Of a stretch of DNA of 45,791 bases, positions 33,356-45,712 are shown one piece after another (position 1 is the first letter of the stretch; every line of letters starts with the position of its first letter). The translations under genes were made by a program, and so were the position numbers. Source of the stretch: Alphaproteobacteria bacterium MedPE-SWcel (GTDB taxonomy: Bacteria; Pseudomonadota; Alphaproteobacteria; Rhodobacterales; Rhodobacteraceae); the NCBI GenBank assembly GCA_001874255.1, contig MPDC01000029.1, forward strand, positions 1-45,791, read 5' to 3'. The notes below the pieces were generated by a model that did not search any database, was not told the origin of the DNA, and saw only the letters and a program-made list of their open reading frames with translations.

Positions 33356-33394
33356 ATGTCACCCAGCCGATACGCCAATATGTCACCCGGCCGA
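33356..33394. repeat. Imperfect 15-base direct repeat at the thiolase end
   Basis: ATGTCACCCAGCCGA (33356-33370) and ATGTCACCCGGCCGA (33380-33394) are 24 bases apart and differ at one base. The second copy covers the stop codon of the thiolase-like gene, so the tail may have been duplicated. Confidence 0.7.
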
Positions 33395-34492
33395 CGCCTC
33401 AAGAAGCGCGGCTGTGCCGATCCCGCCCGCTGCGGCGATCGCGGCCAGCGCCGGCCCGTCGCCGGGGCGCAGGGCGTGAAATAATTTCACCGCCAGAATC
33501 GCGCCCGAGGCCCCGACAGGATGGCCCTGCGCCAAAGCGCCACCGGCCGGATTGACAATATCGGAGGCCAGCCCGGCCCCCGCACTGCAGGCCAAGGCCT
33601 GAACGGCAAAGGCCTCCATGATCTCGGCGCGGTGCAGATCGGACGGCACAAGCGACTGGCGGGACAGCACGGATTGAACGGCAGCAACAGGGGCGATCCC
33701 GGGCTGTTCAGGATCGGCCCCCAGCGTCACGCCCTGCACCAGCCGCAGCCCCGCCCGGCCAAGACGCGCCGCGATCCGGTCACTGACAATCACGACAAGG
33801 GCGGCCGCATCTGCGGCAACCGCCATATTGGCCGCCGTGATGTCTCCGGCGACCTGTCGCGCGAGGGCACAATGGCGCGGTGTCAGATCGCGGGTAAAAG
33901 CATCCTCGCAGATGCCGTCTATTGGCACGATCTCGGCCCTGCGCTCTGCAGGATGGGACCGTGCATACGCGTGGCTGCGTTGGGCCCAGGCATCCTGTTT
34001 GGTGCGGCTGATGCCCAGCGCCCGACCCAGTCGATCCGCAGCTTTTGCCATATCCGGATCGCGGTCCGCCCATGGGGTGAACCGGGCCTGATCATAGGGC
34101 TCCGGAGGGCGGCCATCGGCAAAGGTACGGGCACGCTCCGGGCGGCGGGAATAGCTCTCGGCACCACCGGCGATCACCACATCGTGCAGCCCCTGTTCGA
34201 TCAGCGCATGTCCGAGCAGGATTGCATCCAGCCCGCCTGCGCATTGCCGGTCAATGCTCAGCCCCGCCACGCGCTCCGGCAGGCCACTGGCCAACGCGGC
34301 AATCCGCGCCGGATTGCCGCCCCCGCCAAGGGCGTTGGACAGGATGACCTCGCCAACGTCATCCGGGCCGATCCCGGCATCCGCGAGGCAGGCCGCGACA
34401 ACAGGTGCTGCCAGCTCATGCGGCTCCATTGCTGCAAAGCCGCCGCCTCTGGGCACGACGGCAGTGCGGCGGGCGGCGATTATCAGGGGCAT
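33383..34492 (-). CDS. Thiolase-like protein lacking the C-terminal catalytic Cys
   Basis: This 369-residue thiolase-fold protein keeps the acyl-accepting C84 (DRQCAGGLDA) and H324 (GGALAQGHPVGASG). The usual C-terminal CxG motif reads AIAAAGGIGTAAL, with Ala353 where the proton-shuttling Cys should be, and the NEAFA motif reads MEAFA. Normal biosynthetic or degradative thiolysis is therefore doubtful; an acyl transferase or decarboxylative condensation role is possible. The start ATG at 34492 follows GCGGAAGA and overlaps the end of the AMP-ligase gene by 10 bases, so the two are coupled. No other fatty-acid oxidation genes lie nearby. It is somewhat shorter than typical thiolases (about 390). 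Confidence 0.75.
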   Translation of the reverse strand: MPLIIAARRTAVVPRGGGFAAMEPHELAAPVVAACLADAGIGPDDVGEVILSNALGGGGNPARIAALASGLPERVAGLSIDRQCAGGLDAILLGHALIEQGLHDVVIAGGAESYSRRPERARTFADGRPPEPYDQARFTPWADRDPDMAKAADRLGRALGISRTKQDAWAQRSHAYARSHPAERRAEIVPIDGICEDAFTRDLTPRHCALARQVAGDITAANMAVAADAAALVVIVSDRIAARLGRAGLRLVQGVTLGADPEQPGIAPVAAVQSVLSRQSLVPSDLHRAEIMEAFAVQALACSAGAGLASDIVNPAGGALAQGHPVGASGAILAVKLFHALRPGDGPALAAIAAAGGIGTAALLEASAG

Positions 34493-35646
34493 TCTTCCGC
34501 CTGCAACAGTCTGGTGAGGGTCAACAAGTCCGGCTTCCCTGCCGCCAGCATCGGGATCAGGGGGACCGATCTGATGTCCTTCGGCACCGCATGATCGCCG
34601 ATATGGTGCCGACAGAGCTGGCGCATCTGGCCGATCTCCGCCCGCCCCTGCACAAGCACCACGATCCGATGTCCGCGCATCGGATCCGGCAGGGCAAGGG
34701 CAACTGCGCACTCGACTCCCTTGACGCCCATCAGCAGGCTTTCGATCTCTTCCGGAAAGACATTCCGGTCGGCGACGGTCACCATCCGATTGCGCCGCCC
34801 TTTGGGAAAGAGGTTGCCCGCGGAATCGAGGCGCCCCATTTCACCGATGGTCAGCCAGCCATCCTGCCAGCGGGTCTCCGTGCTGCTGCCCTCTGCGTAG
34901 CCATCAAAGAGATAGGGGCTGCGCAGCCAGATCTCGCCGACGCCGGTGGCATCGGGGTCGGCAATGCGGATCTCGACGCCGGGATAGGCTCGACCCACCG
35001 ACCCGGGCGGCGTCGCGCCATCGGACAGGGTGATGTAGCTCGTTTCTGACGCGCCGAAGATCTCGTGCAGGTCGGCGCTTGGAAACAGGGCCTCCAATGC
35101 GCCTCTGAGGTCTTCGTCCAGTTTGCCGCCGGAAGAGAAAATCAAGCGGACGGTCGGCAGAGGGCTGCCATCAGCGGCACGCAGCAGAAGCCGGAATTGG
35201 GCAGGCGTGGCATATAGGACCGTCGCCCCCAGCCTCGCCAACCCAGTGATTTGCTTGCGCGGCCCCACCCCGCCCAGCATCGCGAGATCAGCGCCGACGT
35301 GGCAGGCGAAGACGGCGGCGAACAGGGTCAGCGAATGCGACAGGGTGCCAAGGCTCGCGACGACATCCGTTTCGCCAAGGCCAAATACCCGCCGGTCCAT
35401 GTCAAAGCTGCGGATCCAGCTTGCCGGTGTGCGGCGGATGGTCTTTGCATATCCGGTCGAGCCGGAGCTCTGACAATAGAGCCACTGTTCAGCCTCGGAA
35501 ATGGCGGCTATGGGCCTGTCGCCCGGCTGCGCCAGAATGGATTTTCCGCTCAGCAGGGCATGGGTCAGCTCGCTCAACCCGACACCCCCGGGGGTTCGGA
35601 TTTCCGTATGCGGCGAGAGCTGAAACCGGGCGTTGTGCGATGTCAT
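34483..35646 (-). CDS. Short AMP-forming acyl-CoA synthetase-like ligase
   Basis: From the ATG at 35646 the protein has 387 residues, well below the usual 500 or more of the family. The motifs present are the phosphate loop SSGSTGYAKT, FGASETS, the GWLTIGEMGRLD Asp motif, and a late GKPDLLTL with the catalytic Lys. The part normally preceding the phosphate loop is nearly absent, so the N-terminal subdomain is truncated. The frame is open to 35745, but that would run into the RpiR gene end. Coupling to the thiolase suggests that the ligase activates an acid for it. The substrate is unknown. Confidence 0.75.
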   Translation of the reverse strand: MTSHNARFQLSPHTEIRTPGGVGLSELTHALLSGKSILAQPGDRPIAAISEAEQWLYCQSSGSTGYAKTIRRTPASWIRSFDMDRRVFGLGETDVVASLGTLSHSLTLFAAVFACHVGADLAMLGGVGPRKQITGLARLGATVLYATPAQFRLLLRAADGSPLPTVRLIFSSGGKLDEDLRGALEALFPSADLHEIFGASETSYITLSDGATPPGSVGRAYPGVEIRIADPDATGVGEIWLRSPYLFDGYAEGSSTETRWQDGWLTIGEMGRLDSAGNLFPKGRRNRMVTVADRNVFPEEIESLLMGVKGVECAVALALPDPMRGHRIVVLVQGRAEIGQMRQLCRHHIGDHAVPKDIRSVPLIPMLAAGKPDLLTLTRLLQAEECP

Positions 35647-35710
35647 ATACGGATCCGCAGAGAGTGTGTCGGCGCAGAACCTAGCCTGCCTGCTCAGCCG
35701 GGAACAGGCC

Positions 35711-36568
35711 TCATGTGAATTTGCGAAACAGCCGCGTGCGGTCAAAAGCCGCTTCCAATTCGTCGGTCCGCGCTTTGACGGTCTCCCAATGGTCTTCCTG
35801 GATCTTGGCGATCATGCTCTCCACCAACAGCAGGAGCGCGACACCGGAATCCCAGGCCGACGGCACTGCGATACGCGCGGCAAAGGTGTATTTGGCCAGC
35901 TTCTGGATCGGCGAGCGCCATTGATCCGTGAACAGCACCACGCGAACGCCGCGCTCATGCGCCATTTCCGCCAGCAGCAGCGTCGCATTCTCGTAGCGGC
36001 GAATGTCAAAAAGGATCAGCGTGTCACCGGGAAGCAAATCCAGCACGGAGTGCGTCCAGGACGCGCGGGGCGGGATCATGAACACATCGCGGCGGATCAT
36101 CTGAAGGTGCAGATAGAAGGATTGCGCCAATGTACCGCTGAGCCGCCCGCCGGCGATGTGGACCCGATGGCTGGTGTCCGCCAGCAGCGCGCATAGGGTG
36201 TCGAACTCTGCGAGGTTCACGTTTTCAAGCGTCGCCCTGATGTTGTCATACACACCGACTGCATAGCGATTGAGCATATGCGCCTCCGGCAGGGCCGGGG
36301 CCTGCTCGGCACGTTTCTCCACCGGGTTGGAGATTATTTCACGCAGCTCCTCCCTGAGGGCATATTGGAACTCCGGGTAGCCTGAAAATCCCAGTTTCTG
36401 CACCATACGCGCGACGGTCGGCGTAGACACCTCGGCCAGATCTGCCAGCTCGGTGATACTCCCAAGGCCCGGAATCGGATAGTTGTCGAGAATGGCAGCC
36501 GCCAACTGTCGCTCGGCGCGGGTCAGCTCCGGCTCGCGTGATTTCAGTTTCTCGGCAATCGTCGGCAT
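35711..36568 (-). CDS. RpiR/MurR-family transcriptional regulator
   Basis: The 285-residue protein has an N-terminal HTH_6 domain (about 1-75, with ITELADLAEVSTPTVARMVQKLGFSGYPEF-type features) and a C-terminal SIS domain (about 120-260) that would bind a phosphosugar or similar ligand. The start ATG at 36568 follows GCAGGAGGG; the frame is open to 36730 but would overlap the divergent gene. It faces the N-formylglutamate amidohydrolase-TRAP operon across 115 bases, and also heads the ligase-thiolase pair. It probably controls the divergent operon, perhaps through the site at 36622. Confidence 0.85.
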   Translation of the reverse strand: MPTIAEKLKSREPELTRAERQLAAAILDNYPIPGLGSITELADLAEVSTPTVARMVQKLGFSGYPEFQYALREELREIISNPVEKRAEQAPALPEAHMLNRYAVGVYDNIRATLENVNLAEFDTLCALLADTSHRVHIAGGRLSGTLAQSFYLHLQMIRRDVFMIPPRASWTHSVLDLLPGDTLILFDIRRYENATLLLAEMAHERGVRVVLFTDQWRSPIQKLAKYTFAARIAVPSAWDSGVALLLLVESMIAKIQEDHWETVKARTDELEAAFDRTRLFRKFT

Positions 36569-36621
36569 GCACCTGCCCTCCTGCGCAGATTTTCTACACA
36601 TTATTACAGGCCGCCATGTGA

Positions 36622-36637
36622 TGAAAGAATTTTTACA
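36622..36637. promoter_or_regulatory. Candidate RpiR-type operator
   Basis: TGAAAGAATTTTTACA is an imperfect palindrome (12 of 16 positions symmetric) lying between the RpiR gene and the divergent operon. Its shape resembles that of HexR sites (TGTAAT-WWW-ATTACA), HexR being an RpiR-family member. A TTGACA at 36647 could be the -35 element of the rightward promoter. Confidence 0.35.
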
Positions 36638-36683
36638 GAAAACATATTGACAGCGGCAAGGTGACTGAAGAGCATACGACATT

Positions 36684-37448
36684 ATGAGCACTGATACCCT
36701 TGTTGCGTCGTTTGGTCCTGCCTTTGCCAAAACCCCCTCTGCCGCCGATGCGGAGGTGATTGTCGTGTGTGAGCACGCCTCGAATTGGATTCCGCCCGAT
36801 CTGAACGGCCTCGGACTGGCTGCAGCGGCGCGCGAGAGTCATATCGCCTGGGACCCCGGCGCTTTGGGCGTGTCCCGCCACCTGGCCGAACGACTGAGCG
36901 CGCCGATGGTCGAGGGATGCATTTCCCGTCTGGTCTACGACCTGAACCGCCCACCGGAGTCACCGACCGCCATCCCGCCCGTCTCCGAGATTTTTGACGT
37001 TCCAGGCAACCGGAACCTCTCGGATGCGGCGCGCAAGATGCGGGTAGAGGCGGTATACACACCGTTCCGCGCCGCCCTCGAAGAGGAAATCCAACGGCGG
37101 CGCACGGCACTGCGCCTGATGGTCACCGTGCATAGTTTCACCCCGGTCTACAACGGCGAGAACCGGGCCGTGGAGCTGGGACTGTTGCATGGGCGCGATG
37201 ACCGGTTCGCCCGCGCGATGCTGGCGCGGCGCCCCTCGGACAACAGCTGGAACGTGCAGCTCAACGCACCCTATAGCGCCTCCGACGGCGTGGCGCATAC
37301 GTTGGATCTGCATGGGTGTGATAACGGATTGCTGAACGTTATGTTGGAAATCCGCAACGACCTGATTGCGACAGAGCATCAGCAACAGAGCTGGGCGGCA
37401 GCGCTTGCGCCCTGGATACAGGCCACCCTCAAGGAGGCATTTGCATGA
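36684..37448 (+). CDS. N-formylglutamate amidohydrolase-family protein
   Basis: This 254-residue HutG-like zinc amidohydrolase has the family start VVCEHASNWIPP (about 27-38), HIAWDPGALGVSRHLAERL, the basic YDLNRP motif and VTVHSFTPV with a likely metal His. Classical HutG cleaves N-formylglutamate in histidine degradation, but no hut genes are present here. In this operon it is followed by a TRAP transporter, a glutamine-synthetase-like ligase and two dehydrogenases. Its role could therefore be hydrolysis of a gamma-glutamyl amide at the end of that route. No good ribosome site precedes the ATG, so the message may be nearly leaderless. It overlaps the next gene by four bases. Confidence 0.85.
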   Translation: MSTDTLVASFGPAFAKTPSAADAEVIVVCEHASNWIPPDLNGLGLAAAARESHIAWDPGALGVSRHLAERLSAPMVEGCISRLVYDLNRPPESPTAIPPVSEIFDVPGNRNLSDAARKMRVEAVYTPFRAALEEEIQRRRTALRLMVTVHSFTPVYNGENRAVELGLLHGRDDRFARAMLARRPSDNSWNVQLNAPYSASDGVAHTLDLHGCDNGLLNVMLEIRNDLIATEHQQQSWAAALAPWIQATLKEAFA

Positions 37449-38032
37449 TCCGTGCCATGCTGGGATATGTGCGCGTGGTGGATGCGGTGAACTACCGCAT
37501 CGGGCGCGTCATGATGTGGGGACTGTTTGCGATGATGGGGGTCCTGCTGTGGTCTTCCATCTCGAAGACGTTCTTTCTGCCCTCGCTCTGGACGCTGGAA
37601 ATGGCGCAGTTCGCCATGGTCGCCTACTACATCCTCGGCGGGCCATACTCGATCCAGTTGGGTTCCAACGTTCGCATGGATCTATTCTACCACAATTGGA
37701 CCATCCGGCGAAAAGCCTGGTTTGACGCCTTCACCGTGCTGGCGTTGATCATCTACCTTGCGATCCTGTTCTACGGCGGGCTGGGATCTACGGCCTATTC
37801 CCTTGGCTATTGGGGCGATAATCCGTTTGCCTTTTTCTGGGGGCTGCTGACCGGCGCCGAAAGCATCGGACATATCGAGCGCTCCTCGACCGCGTGGCGT
37901 CCCTATGTCTGGCCGATCAAATCCATCATGGTTGTCGGGTTCCTGCTGATGTTGCTGCAGGCCATTTCCGAACTTTTCAAAGACCTCGCCCGCATCCACG
38001 GGCATGACATCCCAAGTGAGCGTGACGCATGA
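37445..38032 (+). CDS. TRAP transporter small permease (DctQ)
   Basis: The 195-residue protein has four predicted membrane segments and the DctQ family region (YILGGPYSIQLGSNVRMDLFYHNW-type, about residues 58-82). It forms the small subunit of a three-part TRAP transporter with the next two genes and uses a sodium or proton gradient, not ATP. Its start overlaps the amidohydrolase stop (ATGA) and its stop overlaps dctM (ATGA). The presence of a long loop (about 125-150) between later helices is common in the larger DctQ proteins. Confidence 0.9.
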   Translation: MIRAMLGYVRVVDAVNYRIGRVMMWGLFAMMGVLLWSSISKTFFLPSLWTLEMAQFAMVAYYILGGPYSIQLGSNVRMDLFYHNWTIRRKAWFDAFTVLALIIYLAILFYGGLGSTAYSLGYWGDNPFAFFWGLLTGAESIGHIERSSTAWRPYVWPIKSIMVVGFLLMLLQAISELFKDLARIHGHDIPSERDA

Positions 38033-39348
38033 GCCAGGAATACATCGCCATCTTCATGTTCGCGTCGATGATGCTGATGCTCTTTACAGGGCAGCGGGTC
38101 TTTGGGGCGATCGGAGCAGTGGGCGCGGTTGCCGCGATGCTGCTCTGGGGGGTGGGTGGCTACGACATACCCTTCTCGGCCGCGATGAAGCTGATGAAGT
38201 GGTACCCGCTGCTGACGCTACCGATGTTCATCTTCATGGGCTACGTGTTGAGCGAAAGCCGTTTGGCGGATGATCTCTACAAGATGTTTCACGTCTGGAT
38301 GGGGCCGATCAACGGCGGCTTGGCCATTGGCACCATCGGGCTCATGGTGCTGGTCTCTGCCATGAACGGGCTGTCGGTTGCGGGCATGGCCATCGGGGCC
38401 ACCATCGCGCTGCCGGAACTGCTCAGGCGGGGCTACGACAAGACGATGGTCACCGGCGTCATTCAGGCCGGATCATCACTCGGGATCCTGGTCCCGCCCT
38501 CGGTCGTGCTGGTTCTCTATGCCATGATCGCGCGCCAGCCTGTGGGGCAGCTGTGGCTGGCCGGAGTGCTGCCGGGGCTGATGATGGCGGCCTTGTTCAT
38601 CCTCTACATCTGGTTGCGTTGCAGGATGAACCCGGATCTGGGTCCCGCCATGGAAGACGCCCACGAGGTGCCAAGGGCGGAAAAACTGCGCCTGCTGGGG
38701 GCCGGGGCGCTGCCCCTGTTGATTTTCGCCGCAATGATGATCCCCTTTGTCAACGGCTGGACATCGCTGGTCGAAAGCTCTGCCATCGGGGCGCTGACGG
38801 CGCTGGCGGCCTCGATCGCAAAACGCCGGATGAGCTGGAAGATCTTTGAATCCTGCACCAAAAGCACGCTGGCGATTTCCTGCATGTTCATGTGGATCAT
38901 CCTTGCCGCCCTGGGGTTTGGGGCCGTGTTCGACGGGCTGGGTGCGGTCAAGGCGATTGACAACCTGTTCACCGATCAGCTGGGGCTGGACCCTTGGGTG
39001 ATCCTGATCCTGATGCAGCTGTCCTTCATCCTCATGGGGACGTTCCTCGATGATACGGCGATGCTGGTGATTGTGGCCCCCCTGTATGTGCCGCTGGTGC
39101 AGGCCCTGGGGTTCGACCTTGTCTGGTACGGCATTCTCTATACGATCACCACGCAGATCGCCTACATGACACCGCCGTTCGGCTACAACCTGTTCCTGAT
39201 GCGGGCCATGGCACCGCCAGAAATCGGGCTGGGCGACATCTATCGTTCCATCGTGCCGTTTGTCGGCATCATGGTGGTGGCGCTGGCCATTATCATGATC
39301 TTCCCGCAGATCGCGCTTTGGCTGCCGCAGACAGTTTACGGACAATAA
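38029..39348 (+). CDS. TRAP transporter large permease (DctM)
   Basis: The 439-residue protein has about 12 membrane helices. Conserved DctM features include GAVGAVAAMLLWG, LPMFIFMGYVLSES near residue 64-77, the GSSLGILVPPSVVLVLYA re-entrant region and the late helix with LDDTAMLVIVAPLYVPL. It conducts the substrate bound by the Tat-exported binding protein encoded next. It overlaps dctQ by four bases. Separate DctQ and DctM proteins, not fused, are present. Confidence 0.93.
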   Translation: MSQEYIAIFMFASMMLMLFTGQRVFGAIGAVGAVAAMLLWGVGGYDIPFSAAMKLMKWYPLLTLPMFIFMGYVLSESRLADDLYKMFHVWMGPINGGLAIGTIGLMVLVSAMNGLSVAGMAIGATIALPELLRRGYDKTMVTGVIQAGSSLGILVPPSVVLVLYAMIARQPVGQLWLAGVLPGLMMAALFILYIWLRCRMNPDLGPAMEDAHEVPRAEKLRLLGAGALPLLIFAAMMIPFVNGWTSLVESSAIGALTALAASIAKRRMSWKIFESCTKSTLAISCMFMWIILAALGFGAVFDGLGAVKAIDNLFTDQLGLDPWVILILMQLSFILMGTFLDDTAMLVIVAPLYVPLVQALGFDLVWYGILYTITTQIAYMTPPFGYNLFLMRAMAPPEIGLGDIYRSIVPFVGIMVVALAIIMIFPQIALWLPQTVYGQ

Positions 39349-39402
39349 CCAGAAGACCCTTCAAAGGGCCCAACACAAACTGACCACAGAGAGGTATACC
39401 CA

Positions 39403-40437
39403 ATGACGACACGTCGTAATTTCCTGAAGACCACGGCCCTCGGTGCCGCCGCTGCGCCGCTGGCCACCCCGGCCCTCGCGCAGGGCAAGATCACCTGGCG
39501 CATGCAGACCTACGCAGGCCCGGCGCTGGCCGCCCATGTGATCGACCCGGCGATCGAGATGTTCAACAAGATCGCAGGCGACCGCATGCAGATCGAACTC
39601 TTCTACGCCGATCAGCTGGTGCCCACCGGCGAATTGTTCCGGGCCCTGCAGAAAGGCACGATTGACGCGGTACAATCGGATGACGATTCCATGGCGTCGC
39701 CGACCGAAGTCACGGTGTTTGGCGGCTATTTCCCCTTTGCCTCGCGCTATTCGCTCGATGTTCCGGTCCTGTTCAACCAGTATGGCCTGAACGAGATCTG
39801 GGACGCGGAATATTCCAAAGTCGGCGTGAAACACATCTCTGCCGGTTCCTGGGATCCGTGCCATTTCGCGACGAAGGATCCGATCAACTCTCTGGCGGAT
39901 CTCAAGGGCAAACGCGTCTTCACCTTCCCGACCGCCGGGCGATTCCTGTCGCAGTTTGGCGTCGTGCCGGTCACCCTGCCGTGGGAAGACATCGAAGTGG
40001 CTGTTCAGACCGGCGAGCTGGACGGGATTGCCTGGTCCGGCATCACCGAGGATTACACCGTCGGCTGGGCGGATGTGACCAACTACTTCCTGACCAACAA
40101 CATCTCCGGCGCCTGGGCCGGTAGCTTCTTTGCGAATATGGATCGCTGGAACGAGCTGCCGGAGGATCTGCAGACCCTGTTCCGTGTCTGCTGTGACCAG
40201 TCGCATTACTACCGCCAGTGGTGGTACTGGGGCGGCGAAGCCTCGCTGCGTGTGAATGGCGACAAGATGAAACTGACCTCGATCCCCGATGCCGAATGGC
40301 AGCAGGTCGAAGATGCAGCAATCACCTTCTGGGATGAGATTGCAGCCGAGTCCGAGACCAAGGCAAAGGTCGTCGAGATCTTCAAGAAGTACAACGCCGA
40401 TATGGCGAAGGCCGGCCGCCCGTATCGCTACGGATAA
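39403..40437 (+). CDS. TRAP transporter substrate-binding protein (DctP) with Tat signal
   Basis: The 344-residue periplasmic protein begins MTTRRNFLKTTALG, a twin-arginine signal ending in PALAQ, so it is exported folded. The mature part has the DctP fold, with ADQLVPTGELFRALQKGTID and the ligand region LADLKGKRVFTFPTAGR. In most DctP proteins an Arg of the KxR motif salts to a carboxylate ligand; here that position appears to be F173, with R180 further on. The ligand may not be a simple carboxylate, and an amine or amino alcohol would fit the operon. The alignment is by eye. It is followed after 75 bases by the glutamine-synthetase-like gene. Confidence 0.9.
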   Translation: MTTRRNFLKTTALGAAAAPLATPALAQGKITWRMQTYAGPALAAHVIDPAIEMFNKIAGDRMQIELFYADQLVPTGELFRALQKGTIDAVQSDDDSMASPTEVTVFGGYFPFASRYSLDVPVLFNQYGLNEIWDAEYSKVGVKHISAGSWDPCHFATKDPINSLADLKGKRVFTFPTAGRFLSQFGVVPVTLPWEDIEVAVQTGELDGIAWSGITEDYTVGWADVTNYFLTNNISGAWAGSFFANMDRWNELPEDLQTLFRVCCDQSHYYRQWWYWGGEASLRVNGDKMKLTSIPDAEWQQVEDAAITFWDEIAAESETKAKVVEIFKKYNADMAKAGRPYRYG

Positions 40438-40512
40438 ACGGGCACGCCAACTCACCACGTTACGGGGGGCGGGGTCTGCCCTGCCCCCTGCCAGAACCAC
40501 AGGGAACGCCAG

Positions 40513-41862
40513 ATGACTTTCGAGGATCTCAGGAAACAGATCGCGGCCGGGCAGATTGACACTGTCCTGACCTGCATTGTGGACATGCAAGGCCGGTTGA
40601 TGGGCAAAAGGTTTCACGCCGAGGCCTTCCTCGAGATGGCAGAGGACGAGACCCATTGCTGCAACTATCTTTTGGCCACGGATCTCGAGATGGCGACGCC
40701 CGACGGCTATGCCTCTACCAGTTGGGAGCGGGGCTATGGCGACTACATCATGAAGCCGGATCTTTCGACGCTGCGGCCGGTGCCGTGGCTCGACGGGACT
40801 GCCATGGTGCTGTGCGATGTGCGGGACCACCACACCCATGGGCCGGTGCCGCATTCCCCCCGCGAGATCCTCAAGGCGCAGGTTGCCCGCTGTACGGCGC
40901 TTGGCTTCACAGCCGTCATGGCGACCGAACTGGAGTTTTTCCTGTTCGAAGGGACCCATGACGAGATCGCCCGAAGCGGTTTCAAATTGACGCCGATCTC
41001 CAACTACAATGAGGATTACAGCATTTTCCAGACCTCCAAGGAGGAACCGGTGATGCGCCCGATCCGCAATCACCTGCGGGCCATGGGTATCCCGATCGAG
41101 GGATCCAAGGGCGAAGCAGAAGCGGGTCAGGAAGAGCTGAACGTGAAATATGCCGAGGCACTGGCGACGGCGGACCACCACACGCTGGCCAAACACGGCA
41201 TCAAGGAAATCGCCCACCAGCAGGGCTATGCCGCAAGTTTTCTGCCAAAGTGGGACAAGGACCGGGTTGGTTCCGCGGCCCATGTGCACCAGTCGCTGTG
41301 GGCGGACGGAAAGAACGCCTTTTTCGACGAGGCCGCGCCACTGGGCAAATCAAAGCTGATGGATCACTACATGGCGGGGCTGTTGAAATATGCCGCTGAT
41401 TATACCTATTTCATGGCGCCCTACATCAACAGCTACAAACGCTTTGCCAAGGGGACCTTTGCCCCCACCCAGACGGTATGGTCGGTGGACAACCGGACGG
41501 CAGCCTTTCGCCTTTGTGGTGAAGGATCAAAGGCGGTACGGGTTGAATGCCGCGTGCCGGGGTCCGACATGAACCCCTATCTGGCGCAGGCCGCGATGCT
41601 GGCGGCGGGGCTCCAGGGGATCGAAGAGAAGCTCGAGCTTCCCGGGCCGTTCCGTGGCGATGCATATGCCGGTGATACGGAACAGCATATTCCGCGCACG
41701 CTGCAAGAAGCGCGTGACGCGCTTGCGGCGTCAGAAATGTTGCGGGCGGCGCTTGGAGAAGAGGTTGTGACCCATTACGTCCGCGCGGCGGATTGGGAAA
41801 TCGAGGAATTCAACCGTGTCGTGACCGATTACGAGATCGCGCGCGGGTTCGAGAAAGCCTGA
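40513..41862 (+). CDS. Glutamine-synthetase-like gamma-glutamyl-amine ligase
   Basis: The 449-residue GS-fold protein has metal ligands E139 and E141 in TELEFFLF, E208 in GQEELNVKY and H257 in GSAAHVHQS, and the ATP/glutamate region ending in DNRTAAFRL. There is no adenylylation Tyr loop of housekeeping GlnA, and the length matches PuuA/GlnT/IpuC-type enzymes. Those attach glutamate through its gamma-carboxyl to amines such as putrescine, isopropylamine or ethanolamine. Here it probably does the same with the amine imported by the TRAP system. Start follows CAGGGAACGCC. The assignment to the amine-ligase branch is by eye; true glutamine synthesis is a less likely alternative. Confidence 0.85.
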   Translation: MTFEDLRKQIAAGQIDTVLTCIVDMQGRLMGKRFHAEAFLEMAEDETHCCNYLLATDLEMATPDGYASTSWERGYGDYIMKPDLSTLRPVPWLDGTAMVLCDVRDHHTHGPVPHSPREILKAQVARCTALGFTAVMATELEFFLFEGTHDEIARSGFKLTPISNYNEDYSIFQTSKEEPVMRPIRNHLRAMGIPIEGSKGEAEAGQEELNVKYAEALATADHHTLAKHGIKEIAHQQGYAASFLPKWDKDRVGSAAHVHQSLWADGKNAFFDEAAPLGKSKLMDHYMAGLLKYAADYTYFMAPYINSYKRFAKGTFAPTQTVWSVDNRTAAFRLCGEGSKAVRVECRVPGSDMNPYLAQAAMLAAGLQGIEEKLELPGPFRGDAYAGDTEQHIPRTLQEARDALAASEMLRAALGEEVVTHYVRAADWEIEEFNRVVTDYEIARGFEKA

Positions 41863-41964
41863 TCCGGCGAGGGTGGCGGGGGCCGGCCCCCGGACCCCCG
41901 AGGTATTTGGAAAAAGATGAAAATGGCGAAGGCCGCGTTTGCACGCCGCCGAGGAGTAGGCCAC

Positions 41965-43347
41965 ATGGGCAAGACATTGAACTGTATCTCACCGATTGAT
42001 GGATCGGTTTTTGCAAGTCGGGAGGCACTGGACCTGGAGGCCGCCCGTAACGCGGTGAAAAAGGCCCGCGCGGCGCAACGATCGTGGGCGGCGCGACCGC
42101 TGCAGGAACGGATAGATCTGGTTATGGCCGGCGTGGCCGAAATCGGTGCCATGAATGACGAGATCGTCCCTGAACTGGCCCATATGATGGGGCGGCCGGT
42201 CCGGTTCGGCGGTGAATTCGGCGGCTTCAATGAACGTGCGTCCCATATGGCGAAGATCGCGTCTGAGTCGCTGGCGGATATTGAGGTCGGTGAAGACGAG
42301 AGTTTCAAGCGGTATATCAAGCGAATTCCACATGGCGTTGTCTTTGTCGTCGCTCCGTGGAATTACCCCTATATGACAGCGATCAACACCGTGGCGCCGG
42401 CACTGATCGCCGGAAATACGGTGGTTCTGAAACATGCCACACAGACGTTGTTGGTCGGCGAACGCATGGCGAGAGCATTCCATGCGGCGGGCGTGCCGGA
42501 GGATGTGTTTCAGAATGCATTCCTCGATCACGAGACCACGTCGGCGCTGATTGCCGAGAGAGCTTTTGATTTTGTGAACTTCACCGGGTCTGTCGGCGGC
42601 GGTCAGGCGATGGAGCGCGCGGCGGCGGGGACGTTTACCGGTGTTGGAACAGAATTGGGCGGTAAAGATCCCGGCTATGTAATGGAGGATGCCGACCTGG
42701 ACGCCGCGGTCGATACGCTGATCGACGGCGCCATGTTCAATTCCGGACAGTGCTGCTGCGGGATCGAGCGGATCTATGTTCACGAGAGCCTGTATGAGGC
42801 GTTTCTTGAAAAGGCCATTGCAGTCGTCCGCGGCTACAGGCTCGGAAACCCGCTGGATAAGGAGACGACCATTGGACCGATGGCGCATGTCCGCTTCGCA
42901 CAGGAGGTCCGGGATCAGATTTCCGAGGCGCTTGCGGCAGGAGCCGAGGCGCATATAGAGACCATGGAGGCTGACGACGGCGGGGCATATCTCACGCCGC
43001 AAATCCTGACCAATGTGACGCATGATATGCGTGTGATGCGCGACGAGAGTTTCGGGCCTGTCGTGGGGATCATGAAAGTGTCCTCGGATGAAGAAGCCAT
43101 TGAATTGATGAACGATAGCGAGTTTGGCCTGACCGCGTCCCTCTGGACCGGAGATATCGCACGGGCGCAGGCGGTCGGAGACCGGATCGAGACGGGAACC
43201 GTGTTCATGAACCGGGCCGACTATCTGGATCCGGGGCTGTGCTGGACGGGATGCAAGAACACCGGGCGCGGCGGCGGGCTCTCTGTCATTGGCTACCAGA
43301 ACCTGACCCGTCCGAAATCCTACCATCTGAAGAAAGTCACTGTCTGA
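41965..43347 (+). CDS. NAD(P)-dependent aldehyde dehydrogenase
   Basis: The 460-residue protein has the ALDH catalytic set: N133 (APWNYPY), E230 (GTELGGKDPG) and nucleophile C264 (NSGQCCCGIER). The start ATG at 41965 follows GAGGAG; the frame is open to 41917, but that is leader. Within the operon it lies between the GS-like ligase and the alcohol dehydrogenase. It could oxidise a gamma-glutamyl aminoaldehyde to the acid, as PuuC does in the putrescine route. Alone, its sequence does not settle the substrate. The region of Cys residues and ELGGK is intact, so it should be active. Confidence 0.92.
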   Translation: MGKTLNCISPIDGSVFASREALDLEAARNAVKKARAAQRSWAARPLQERIDLVMAGVAEIGAMNDEIVPELAHMMGRPVRFGGEFGGFNERASHMAKIASESLADIEVGEDESFKRYIKRIPHGVVFVVAPWNYPYMTAINTVAPALIAGNTVVLKHATQTLLVGERMARAFHAAGVPEDVFQNAFLDHETTSALIAERAFDFVNFTGSVGGGQAMERAAAGTFTGVGTELGGKDPGYVMEDADLDAAVDTLIDGAMFNSGQCCCGIERIYVHESLYEAFLEKAIAVVRGYRLGNPLDKETTIGPMAHVRFAQEVRDQISEALAAGAEAHIETMEADDGGAYLTPQILTNVTHDMRVMRDESFGPVVGIMKVSSDEEAIELMNDSEFGLTASLWTGDIARAQAVGDRIETGTVFMNRADYLDPGLCWTGCKNTGRGGGLSVIGYQNLTRPKSYHLKKVTV

Positions 43348-43421
43348 CTTTCCTTGGGGACGCTGTATCCTTCGGAACTGAACCTATTTCGGCCTATGGC
43401 CATATAAGAAAGGCAACCTTC

Positions 43422-44567
43422 ATGTCTCTCACTGGAAACTGGTCCTACCCGACCGCAATCAAATTCGGTGCAGGCCGGATTGGGGAACTGGCCGAGGCCT
43501 GTACGCAGGCGGGCATAAAAAAGCCTCTGCTTGTCACCGACAAGGGGCTGGCGGATCTGCCCGTGACCCGATCGACACTCGACATCATGGACGCGGCCGG
43601 GCTTGGTCGCGGGATGTTCTCGGAGGTGGATCCAAACCCGAACGAGAAGAACCTGAACGCAGGTGTCGCGGCCTATAGGGCCGGTGGTCATGACGGTGTC
43701 ATTGCCTTTGGCGGCGGCTCCGGGCTCGATCTTGGCAAGATGGTGGCCTTCATGGCCGGTCAGACCCGACCGATCTGGGATTTCGAGGATATCGGCGATT
43801 GGTGGACCCGCGCCGATGCGGATGCCATCGCGCCAATCATTGCGGTGCCCACCACAGCCGGAACCGGATCCGAGGTGGGGCGAGCCTCTGTCATCACCGA
43901 CAGCGTGACCCATCAGAAAAAGATCATTTTCCATCCCAAAGTGCTGCCAACGGTGGTAATTTGCGACCCGGACCTCACCGTGGGCATGCCAAGGTTCATC
44001 ACGGCGGGCACCGGGCTCGATGCCTTTGCGCATTGCGTCGAGGCCTTCTCCTCGCCGCATTATCACCCGATGTCGCAGGGTATCGCGCTGGAAGGCATGC
44101 GTTTGGTCAAGGAGTATCTTCCGCGCGCCTATGAGGATGGAACCGACATTGAGGCCCGCGCGCAGATGATGGCAGCGGCAGCGATGGGGGCAACCGGGTT
44201 CCAAAAGGGGCTTGGGGCGATCCACGCCATGAGCCACCCCATCGGCGCCGTGTTCAACACCCACCACGGCACCACGAATGCAGTCTGCATGCCCGCTGTG
44301 TTGGCGTTCAATGCCGATGCCATTGCGGACCGATTTGACACCGCCGCCGCCTACCTGGGTATCAAGGGCGGATTCGCCGGTTTCCAAAGCTATGTGCAAG
44401 ACCTGAACGACAGCCTCGGCATCCCGCGTCGCCTGTCGGACCTTGGCGTGACCGAGGAGGCCATCCCGGAACTGGTCAAGGGGGCGATCATCGATCCAAG
44501 CTGTGGTGGCAATCCGATCAAGCTGACAGAAGAAAACCTGACACAGCTCTTCAAAGCCGCACTCTGA
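43422..44567 (+). CDS. Iron-containing (group III) alcohol dehydrogenase
   Basis: The 381-residue protein has the NAD(P)-binding GGGSGLDLGK (97-106), PTTAGTGSE (143-151) and the metal ligands D200, H204 (GLDAFAHCVEAF), H268 (GAIHAMSHP) and H282 (FNTHHG). It oxidises a primary alcohol to an aldehyde, which the preceding aldehyde dehydrogenase could then use. Start is the ATG at 43422; AGAAAGG lies upstream. Its stop is separated by a strong hairpin from the convergent LacI gene. In a gamma-glutamylation route the presence of an alcohol dehydrogenase, and not an amine oxidase, points to an amino-alcohol substrate. Confidence 0.92.
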   Translation: MSLTGNWSYPTAIKFGAGRIGELAEACTQAGIKKPLLVTDKGLADLPVTRSTLDIMDAAGLGRGMFSEVDPNPNEKNLNAGVAAYRAGGHDGVIAFGGGSGLDLGKMVAFMAGQTRPIWDFEDIGDWWTRADADAIAPIIAVPTTAGTGSEVGRASVITDSVTHQKKIIFHPKVLPTVVICDPDLTVGMPRFITAGTGLDAFAHCVEAFSSPHYHPMSQGIALEGMRLVKEYLPRAYEDGTDIEARAQMMAAAAMGATGFQKGLGAIHAMSHPIGAVFNTHHGTTNAVCMPAVLAFNADAIADRFDTAAAYLGIKGGFAGFQSYVQDLNDSLGIPRRLSDLGVTEEAIPELVKGAIIDPSCGGNPIKLTEENLTQLFKAAL

Positions 44568-44660: not shown

Positions 44661-45668
44661 CTATGCGGGCACCCGGGCGACGCTGTCGCGACATATCAGT
44701 TCGACTTCGACAATCTGTGACGGCCCGGTCAGGGTCCCGGCTTCGATCATGTCAAGGAGCAGCCGGGCGGCCTGTTCGCCAATCTGAGTGCGGCGCTGGC
44801 GGATCGTGGTCAGCGCCGGAGAGAGGTGACCAACCACCTCAATATTGTCGAACCCCACCAGCGAGACATCTTCAGGCACCCTTATGCCCCGGTGCTGAAC
44901 AACCCCCATAAAGCCGACCGCCATTTCATCTGACGCGCAAAACAGAGCGGTGGGCCGGGTTTCCAACTGGAGCCACTTCTGGGCCGCTGCGGCGCCGGAA
45001 TCCATGCTGAAATCGCCATCGAACACCCAGTCCGGAGGCGTTGACACCCCCCGTTCCGCCAGCGCATCGCGATACCCCGCCAGCCGCGTTTCCGACAGAA
45101 CATTGCCCTGTGGTCCCGTGATATGACCGATCCGTCTGTGACCCATGTCGAACAGGTGGCCAACCGCCAATGCCGCGCCACGGGCGTTTTCCGTACGCAC
45201 CGAGGGGAGATCATCATCCATCCATTCACATGCGAGAACAACGGGCGGACGGCCCGGGTTTTTCAGCGCCTCGGCAGACAGGGTTCCGTCAAACAGGATC
45301 AACCCGTCCGCCATGCTGGACTGGAGATATGCCGATAGCCGATCCTCAGGATTGGGTCCGGCCTGTGTGTCGGCAATCAGGAGGCCATAGCCGACGGGAT
45401 GCAGAACCGAATTGATGCCCGCAAGGATCTGCGAAAAGAATGGATTTGCAAGGTTCGGAATCAACGCGATGACGCTGCCCGTGCGTTGCCTGCGGAGGTT
45501 CGAGGCCGTCGCATTGACGCGGTATCCGGTGCGGTCCACGGCGGCCAATACGGCTTCCCGCGTCGCCTTGGCGACAACGGAAGGTTTCGACAAGGTCCGG
45601 CTGACGGTCGCAGTGGACACCCCCGCACGCGCAGCAACATCTTGAATCGTAGCGATCTTCTTGTCCAT
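44661..45668 (-). CDS. LacI-family transcriptional regulator
   Basis: The 335-residue protein has the LacI HTH (IATIQDVAARAGVSTATVSR, 4-23) with hinge helix, and a periplasmic-binding-protein-like core (about 62-330). The ATG at 45668 follows AAAGGAAGG and begins MDKKIATIQD; the frame is open to 45692, but that part overlaps the ribosome site. The effector is unknown. It lies convergent to the dehydrogenase operon and may control genes beyond the right edge rather than that operon. Confidence 0.88.
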   Translation of the reverse strand: MDKKIATIQDVAARAGVSTATVSRTLSKPSVVAKATREAVLAAVDRTGYRVNATASNLRRQRTGSVIALIPNLANPFFSQILAGINSVLHPVGYGLLIADTQAGPNPEDRLSAYLQSSMADGLILFDGTLSAEALKNPGRPPVVLACEWMDDDLPSVRTENARGAALAVGHLFDMGHRRIGHITGPQGNVLSETRLAGYRDALAERGVSTPPDWVFDGDFSMDSGAAAAQKWLQLETRPTALFCASDEMAVGFMGVVQHRGIRVPEDVSLVGFDNIEVVGHLSPALTTIRQRRTQIGEQAARLLLDMIEAGTLTGPSQIVEVELICRDSVARVPA

Positions 45669-45712
45669 GAACCTTCCTTTGACGGCGCTCATAATGCCTC
45701 AATGAGAAAATG

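Follow-up and report, generated by a model that had tools for sequence, protein, structure and literature searches.

A 45,791-nucleotide stretch of DNA from the Alphaproteobacteria bacterium MedPE-SWcel (contig MPDC01000029.1; the whole stretch analyzed is called the window here) carries an operon that we read as the Eto operon, a gamma-glutamylation operon for ethanolamine. Judging from its sequence, we put the probability of this reading at roughly 0.94. On the plus strand, positions 36684 to 44567 encode, in order, an FGase-type amidohydrolase, the tripartite ATP-independent periplasmic (TRAP) permeases DctQ and DctM, a DctP binding protein exported by twin-arginine translocation (Tat), a ligase with the glutamine synthetase (GS) fold, an aldehyde dehydrogenase (ALDH), and an iron alcohol dehydrogenase. 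The divergent RpiR regulator gene (35711 to 36568) is part of the same unit. A preliminary description of this DNA had given the families, order, and rightward strand of the seven genes, and Pfam and NCBIfam matches bore these out; the divergent regulator was absent from that description. The evidence consists of gene content, gene order, homology, and the signature of a ligand site, together with a genome search that did not find EutB.

The system is already known. An operon identical in gene set and gene order has been published for Phaeobacter sp. MED193, with the genes named RpiR, GGAH, EtoV, EtoW, EtoX, ETAGA, GAADDH, and GETADH (MED193_10021-10056; PMC10132767, Sci Adv 2023). When compared by gene list, families, and order, the two operons have the same eight genes in the same arrangement, RpiR included, and no difference is apparent in the accessible published description. 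The pathway had been put forward in the preliminary description as possibly new; in this respect, the description was anticipated by the MED193 work. The EtoX protein of MED193 binds ethanolamine with a Kd of 7.9 uM, and five proteins of the MED193 operon increase on phosphorylethanolamine (PMC10132767).

For this strain, both the regulation and every catalytic step are inferred, as follows. EtoX would capture ethanolamine in the periplasm, and EtoV and EtoW would import it. The ligase would join ethanolamine to the gamma-carboxyl group of glutamate at the expense of ATP, giving gamma-glutamylethanolamide. The iron alcohol dehydrogenase would convert the hydroxyl group to an aldehyde, ALDH would convert the aldehyde to gamma-glutamylglycine, and the FGase-type amidohydrolase would release glycine and return glutamate. 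The RpiR protein would control the operon. This route, with uptake by a TRAP transporter, had been proposed in the preliminary description and is supported here; it fits the enzyme names of the MED193 operon (PMC10132767).

No cobalamin-dependent ammonia-lyase had been expected, and a search of the genome (completeness, 99.68%) did not reveal EutB (PF06751; 0 of 1), with E. coli positive among 14 controls. Hence, we rejected the cobalamin-dependent Eut pathway as a candidate. As read here, the operon is a cobalamin-free route for ethanolamine. Ethanolamine from phosphatidylethanolamine is a source of nitrogen and carbon in the sea. This ecological point has already been published (PMC10132767); the present analysis is of practical use in that it allows this locus, which family models name only as FGase, DctP, and GS fold, to be annotated with confidence.

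The EtoX binding protein and its ligand site

EtoX is a probable Tat-exported, predicted ethanolamine-binding protein of the DctP family (39403 to 40437, plus strand; PF03480, 75.6 bits). Its Tat signal was matched by the NCBIfam Tat-signal domain (23.8 bits; cutoff, 16.7), and the Pfam Tat model scored just below its cutoff (21.1; cutoff, 22.7). Among PDB sequences, EtoX matched 4uab/4xf5 with 636.6 bits, and the next solved sequence scored only 65 bits. The closest solved structure is thus Csal_0678 of Chromohalobacter salexigens (4UAB), which has ethanolamine bound (PMC12410723); the two proteins have identical residues at 265 of 314 aligned positions. A TRAP protein of C. salexigens crystallized with ethanolamine had been mentioned in the preliminary description, correctly.

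In typical TRAP binding proteins, the Arg that corresponds to Arg-147 of SiaP holds the carboxylate of the ligand, but Csal_0678 lacks that Arg (PMC4646407). It is likewise missing from EtoX: the corresponding position is Phe173, and Csal_0678 also has Phe there. In a profile-based alignment, by contrast, the carboxylate-binding Arg was present in each of the 13 further TRAP binding proteins that we found encoded in this genome, one of which (L126) is a shortened frame. We also aligned 55 EtoX sequences, namely, that of the window and 54 frames from the 80 related loci described below. At position 173, 51 of these had Phe and 4 had Tyr; at position 216, all 55 had Glu. Given a numbering offset of three, Glu216 is likely to be the equivalent of the platform acid Glu220 of Csal_0678. 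Binding of carboxylates only had been named as an outcome that would tell against the proposal; the missing Arg argues, indirectly and by sequence, against such binding.

Two side observations concern proteins of this family. The 244-residue open frame of L126 (G000:C1:228160-228756) matches only the ends of the DctP profile (1 to 141 and 224 to 284), the middle seemingly being missing. In-frame TGA or TAG codons had been flagged in five distant EtoX matches (G165, G230, G302, G358, and G456). We rejected these as internal stops: in tblastn, the alignments, which extend as far as query residue 342, included no stop, and the flagged codon is probably the terminal stop.

The ligase and the other enzymes

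The fifth plus-strand gene (40513 to 41862; PF00120, 341 bits) encodes a probable ethanolamine gamma-glutamylase (gamma-glutamylethanolamide synthetase) with the GS fold. Its best PDB match was 5dm3, which we take to be a C. salexigens enzyme (694.7 bits; 67.5% identity over 446 positions), followed by 11zs (55.7%). Identity was 30.2% to E. coli PuuA and 26 to 34% to the five further GS-like proteins that the genome encodes. The ligase scored below the cutoffs of the models for type I GS (TIGR00653, 245.8; cutoff, 429.15), type III GS (TIGR03105, 251.6; cutoff, 469.6), and PuuA (220.7; cutoff, 650). Of the paralogues, L001 passed as GlnA (650.8) and L005 passed as type III GS (649.0), whereas L003, L004, and L006 passed none. 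We built a maximum-likelihood tree of 29 rows, drawing on 20 of the 80 loci; in it, the ligase of the window, 20 orthologues, 5dm3, and 11zs formed one clade (support, 100/99), with PuuA and the five paralogues outside. Grouping with ammonia-using GS, an outcome raised in the preliminary description, was therefore not observed; the ligase stood apart from the GlnA and type III GS of the genome.

L003 and L004 lie in tandem elsewhere in the genome (G000:C36:563-3655) and are followed by a frame that, by eye, resembles a flavin adenine dinucleotide (FAD) oxidoreductase. They possibly form a separate amine gamma-glutamylation cluster.

The remaining genes are also on the plus strand. The first (36684 to 37448; PF05013, 141.8 bits) encodes a probable gamma-glutamylglycine amidohydrolase (GGAH) of the FGase family. 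Its sole solved relative at an E value of ≤0.001 was Atu2144 (2odf; 231 bits, 52.9% identity over 227 residues), a name that indicates an Agrobacterium protein. HutG was rejected as an identity for this gene, since the TIGR02017 equivalog model gave 21.4 bits against a cutoff of 278.75, and the amidohydrolase had no match in PADLOC. Next come EtoV, the TRAP small permease DctQ (37445 to 38032; PF04290, 61.5 bits), and EtoW, the large permease DctM (38029 to 39348; PF06808, 217.9 bits); at each of the two junctions among these first three genes, the overlap is 4 bases. Downstream of the ligase lies the gene for a probable gamma-glutamyl-acetaldehydamide dehydrogenase of the ALDH family (41917 to 43347; PF00171, 387.5 bits), the counterpart of MED193_10051 by position. 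ATG 41965, counted by hand, may be an alternative to its start at 41917. The last gene encodes a probable gamma-glutamylethanolamide dehydrogenase, an iron alcohol dehydrogenase (43422 to 44567; PF00465, 160.6 bits; PF25137, 157 bits), and is the counterpart of MED193_10056 by position. We consider its start more likely to be 43422 than the mechanically called GTG at 43239.

Conservation in related genomes

A search of genome contigs with the ligase yielded 243 confirmed places, of which we examined the best 80. Genes were called at these loci at an identity of at least 38% and a coverage of >0.1. The complete set of eight genes, with order and strands unchanged, was present at 47 of the 80 loci. 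Because the loci were fetched by the ligase alone, conservation of order and strands to this extent indicates that the eight-gene block is not a matter of chance. Alignment coverage for ALDH was 0.95 to 1.00 across the 47 complete loci. In samples of genomes drawn evenly from the family (Rhodobacteraceae) and the class (Alphaproteobacteria), an EtoX match at an E value of ≤1e-90 was found in 107 of 198 and 47 of 385 genomes, respectively, with the genome studied here counted in both.

Comparison with other gamma-glutamylation pathways

The pathway in C. salexigens and Agrobacterium tumefaciens C58 is credited to Vetting et al. 2015. It is described as demonstrated in Agrobacterium in one citing paper (PMC10132767), whereas the C. 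salexigens route is called predicted in silico in another (PMC6529630); hence, the citing papers differ in the strength that they give to this work. Compared protein by protein, the Csal_0678 cluster and the Agrobacterium C58 pathway provide close homologues of the binding protein (4uab), the ligase (5dm3), and the amidohydrolase (2odf, Atu2144) in the window. Like the window operon, the GlnA4 cluster of Streptomyces coelicolor uses the gamma-glutamylethanolamide route and encodes both an aldehyde dehydrogenase and a GS-like ligase. It differs in having a short-chain dehydrogenase, a hydrolase of the glutamine-amidotransferase type, and another putative transporter (PMC6529630). The Puu pathway of E. 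coli follows the same logic of glutamylation, oxidation, and hydrolysis. However, it uses the oxidase PuuB, PuuD, and the symporter PuuP, where the window operon has an alcohol dehydrogenase, an FGase, and a TRAP transporter.

Alternative explanations for the operon

Could the operon instead be a Puu-type polyamine pathway with a ligase acting on putrescine? The overall logic is the same, and the ligase has some identity (30.2%) to PuuA. However, the ligase scored far below the PuuA cutoff, PuuA fell outside the ligase clade, and by Pfam the seven-gene block includes neither an amine oxidase nor a PuuD-type hydrolase. We regard this explanation as extremely improbable. Similarly, we give minimal credence to the ligase being an ordinary ammonia-using GS that lies beside an unrelated organic-acid TRAP transporter. 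This would account for the GS fold and for the sub-threshold matches to the GlnA and type III GS models, but L001 and L005 of the same genome pass the cutoffs that the ligase does not reach, the carboxylate-binding Arg is missing from the binding protein, and ligase and transporter occur together at 47 of the 80 loci. A third explanation keeps the pathway but changes its main substrate to another amino alcohol, such as 2-amino-1-propanol, so that the product would be a gamma-glutamyl amino acid other than gamma-glutamylglycine. The Csal_0678 sequence is found in two PDB entries, 4uab and 4xf5, and the ligand of the latter is presumably 2-amino-1-propanol. Ethanolamine, however, is a common lipid headgroup. 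In addition, the MED193 counterpart binds ethanolamine, and its operon responds to phosphorylethanolamine, as described above (PMC10132767). We consider a different main substrate very unlikely.

Several points weigh against reading the operon as one for ethanolamine. As far as the sequence goes, small amino alcohols other than ethanolamine would also be compatible with it. The likely equivalence of Glu216 and Glu220 depends on the numbering offset noted above (printed chain index, 217). In the ligase tree, the outer branches are long and the bootstrap is rough and not settled. Part of the block is missing from 33 of the 80 loci, and 26 of those 33 had no EtoX match within the DNA examined, so transporter and ligase are not coupled in all relatives. 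Three of the 26 (L051, L066, and L080) have <3 kb of DNA before the ligase; therefore, 23 of the 80 loci look TRAP-less within 4.9 to 8 kb upstream of the ligase. Many of these 23 keep the ALDH and alcohol dehydrogenase genes after the ligase.

Two loci of relatives have other genes near the ligase. In a contig of a Rhodobacteraceae metagenome-assembled genome (L069:4595-10492), an ATP-binding cassette (ABC) importer (one ATPase and two permeases) directly precedes the ligase, replacing the TRAP genes, and an alcohol dehydrogenase directly follows; the ALDH of the window was unmatched within the 17 kb examined. In Tritonibacter multivorans (L068:4002-9359), a gene for a DAO-GcvT oxidoreductase precedes those for the amidohydrolase and ligase, one other frame lies in between, and TRAP genes are absent nearby.

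Promoter region and regulator

The divergent gene, on the minus strand with its start codon placed at 36568, encodes a MurR/RpiR-family regulator with HTH_6 and SIS domains (PF01418 and PF01380) and is the counterpart of MED193_10021 by position. The candidate promoter region of the plus-strand genes (36620 to 36683) includes a conserved -35-like box, TTGACA, at 36647 to 36652, with possible dyads on both sides. TTGACA was present in 47 of 53 divergent RpiR-amidohydrolase intergenic stretches, that of the window included, whereas base-shuffled stretches gave 2.7 of 53 on average. In the window, the ATG at 36684 lies 31 bases after the box, and no Shine-Dalgarno sequence was obvious by eye before this start codon (36569 to 36683). 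Together, these features suggest that the operon transcript may be almost leaderless.

An exact-dyad census of the intergenic stretches (half-length, 5 to 7) found no dyad common to more than 6 of the 53, and none of the 25 dyads listed occurs in the window. For the tests that follow, the six stretches lacking TTGACA were excluded and similar ones were collapsed, from 47 to 38. In a test for two matching copies of an operator at each locus, the mean best 17-mer match was 10.4 within a locus, 10.0 across loci, and 9.6 in shuffles, a weak difference; the observed mean was reached by 8 of 300 random pairings of loci that are themselves related. The segment downstream of TTGACA was more palindromic than shuffles at lengths of 16 (0.664 versus 0.569), 18 (0.637 versus 0.551), and 20 (0.597 versus 0.531), with no excess at 17. 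The upstream segment was scarcely more so (0.599 versus 0.569 at 16). These flanking dyads are suggestive, a lead with weak statistics.

We propose, tentatively and with some doubt, that two dyads, located upstream of TTGACA and over the -10 region, respectively, are the binding sites of RpiR and that this protein keeps a nearly leaderless transcript repressed; it would be released when its SIS domain binds ethanolamine or one of its phosphorylated or glutamylated forms. In the same proposal, the ligase would in some relatives have been replumbed to other transporters, such as an ABC importer. Among the open papers listed for the terms searched, none on an RpiR operator of the Eto operon was found by title or the start of the abstract. 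The conserved TTGACA near the first start codon, and the relatives that have no TRAP binding protein of this type near the ligase, are modest additions to a known system.

Neighboring genes

Beside the RpiR gene, two minus-strand genes (33383 to 35745) encode proteins resembling an AMP-dependent acyl-coenzyme A (acyl-CoA) synthetase and, by eye, a thiolase. Matches to them at an identity of at least 38% were found at 7 and 6 of the 80 loci, respectively, including L054, L037, L038, L039, L041, and L042. After the 3' end of the operon lies a gene for a LacI-type regulator (44661 to 45692, minus strand).

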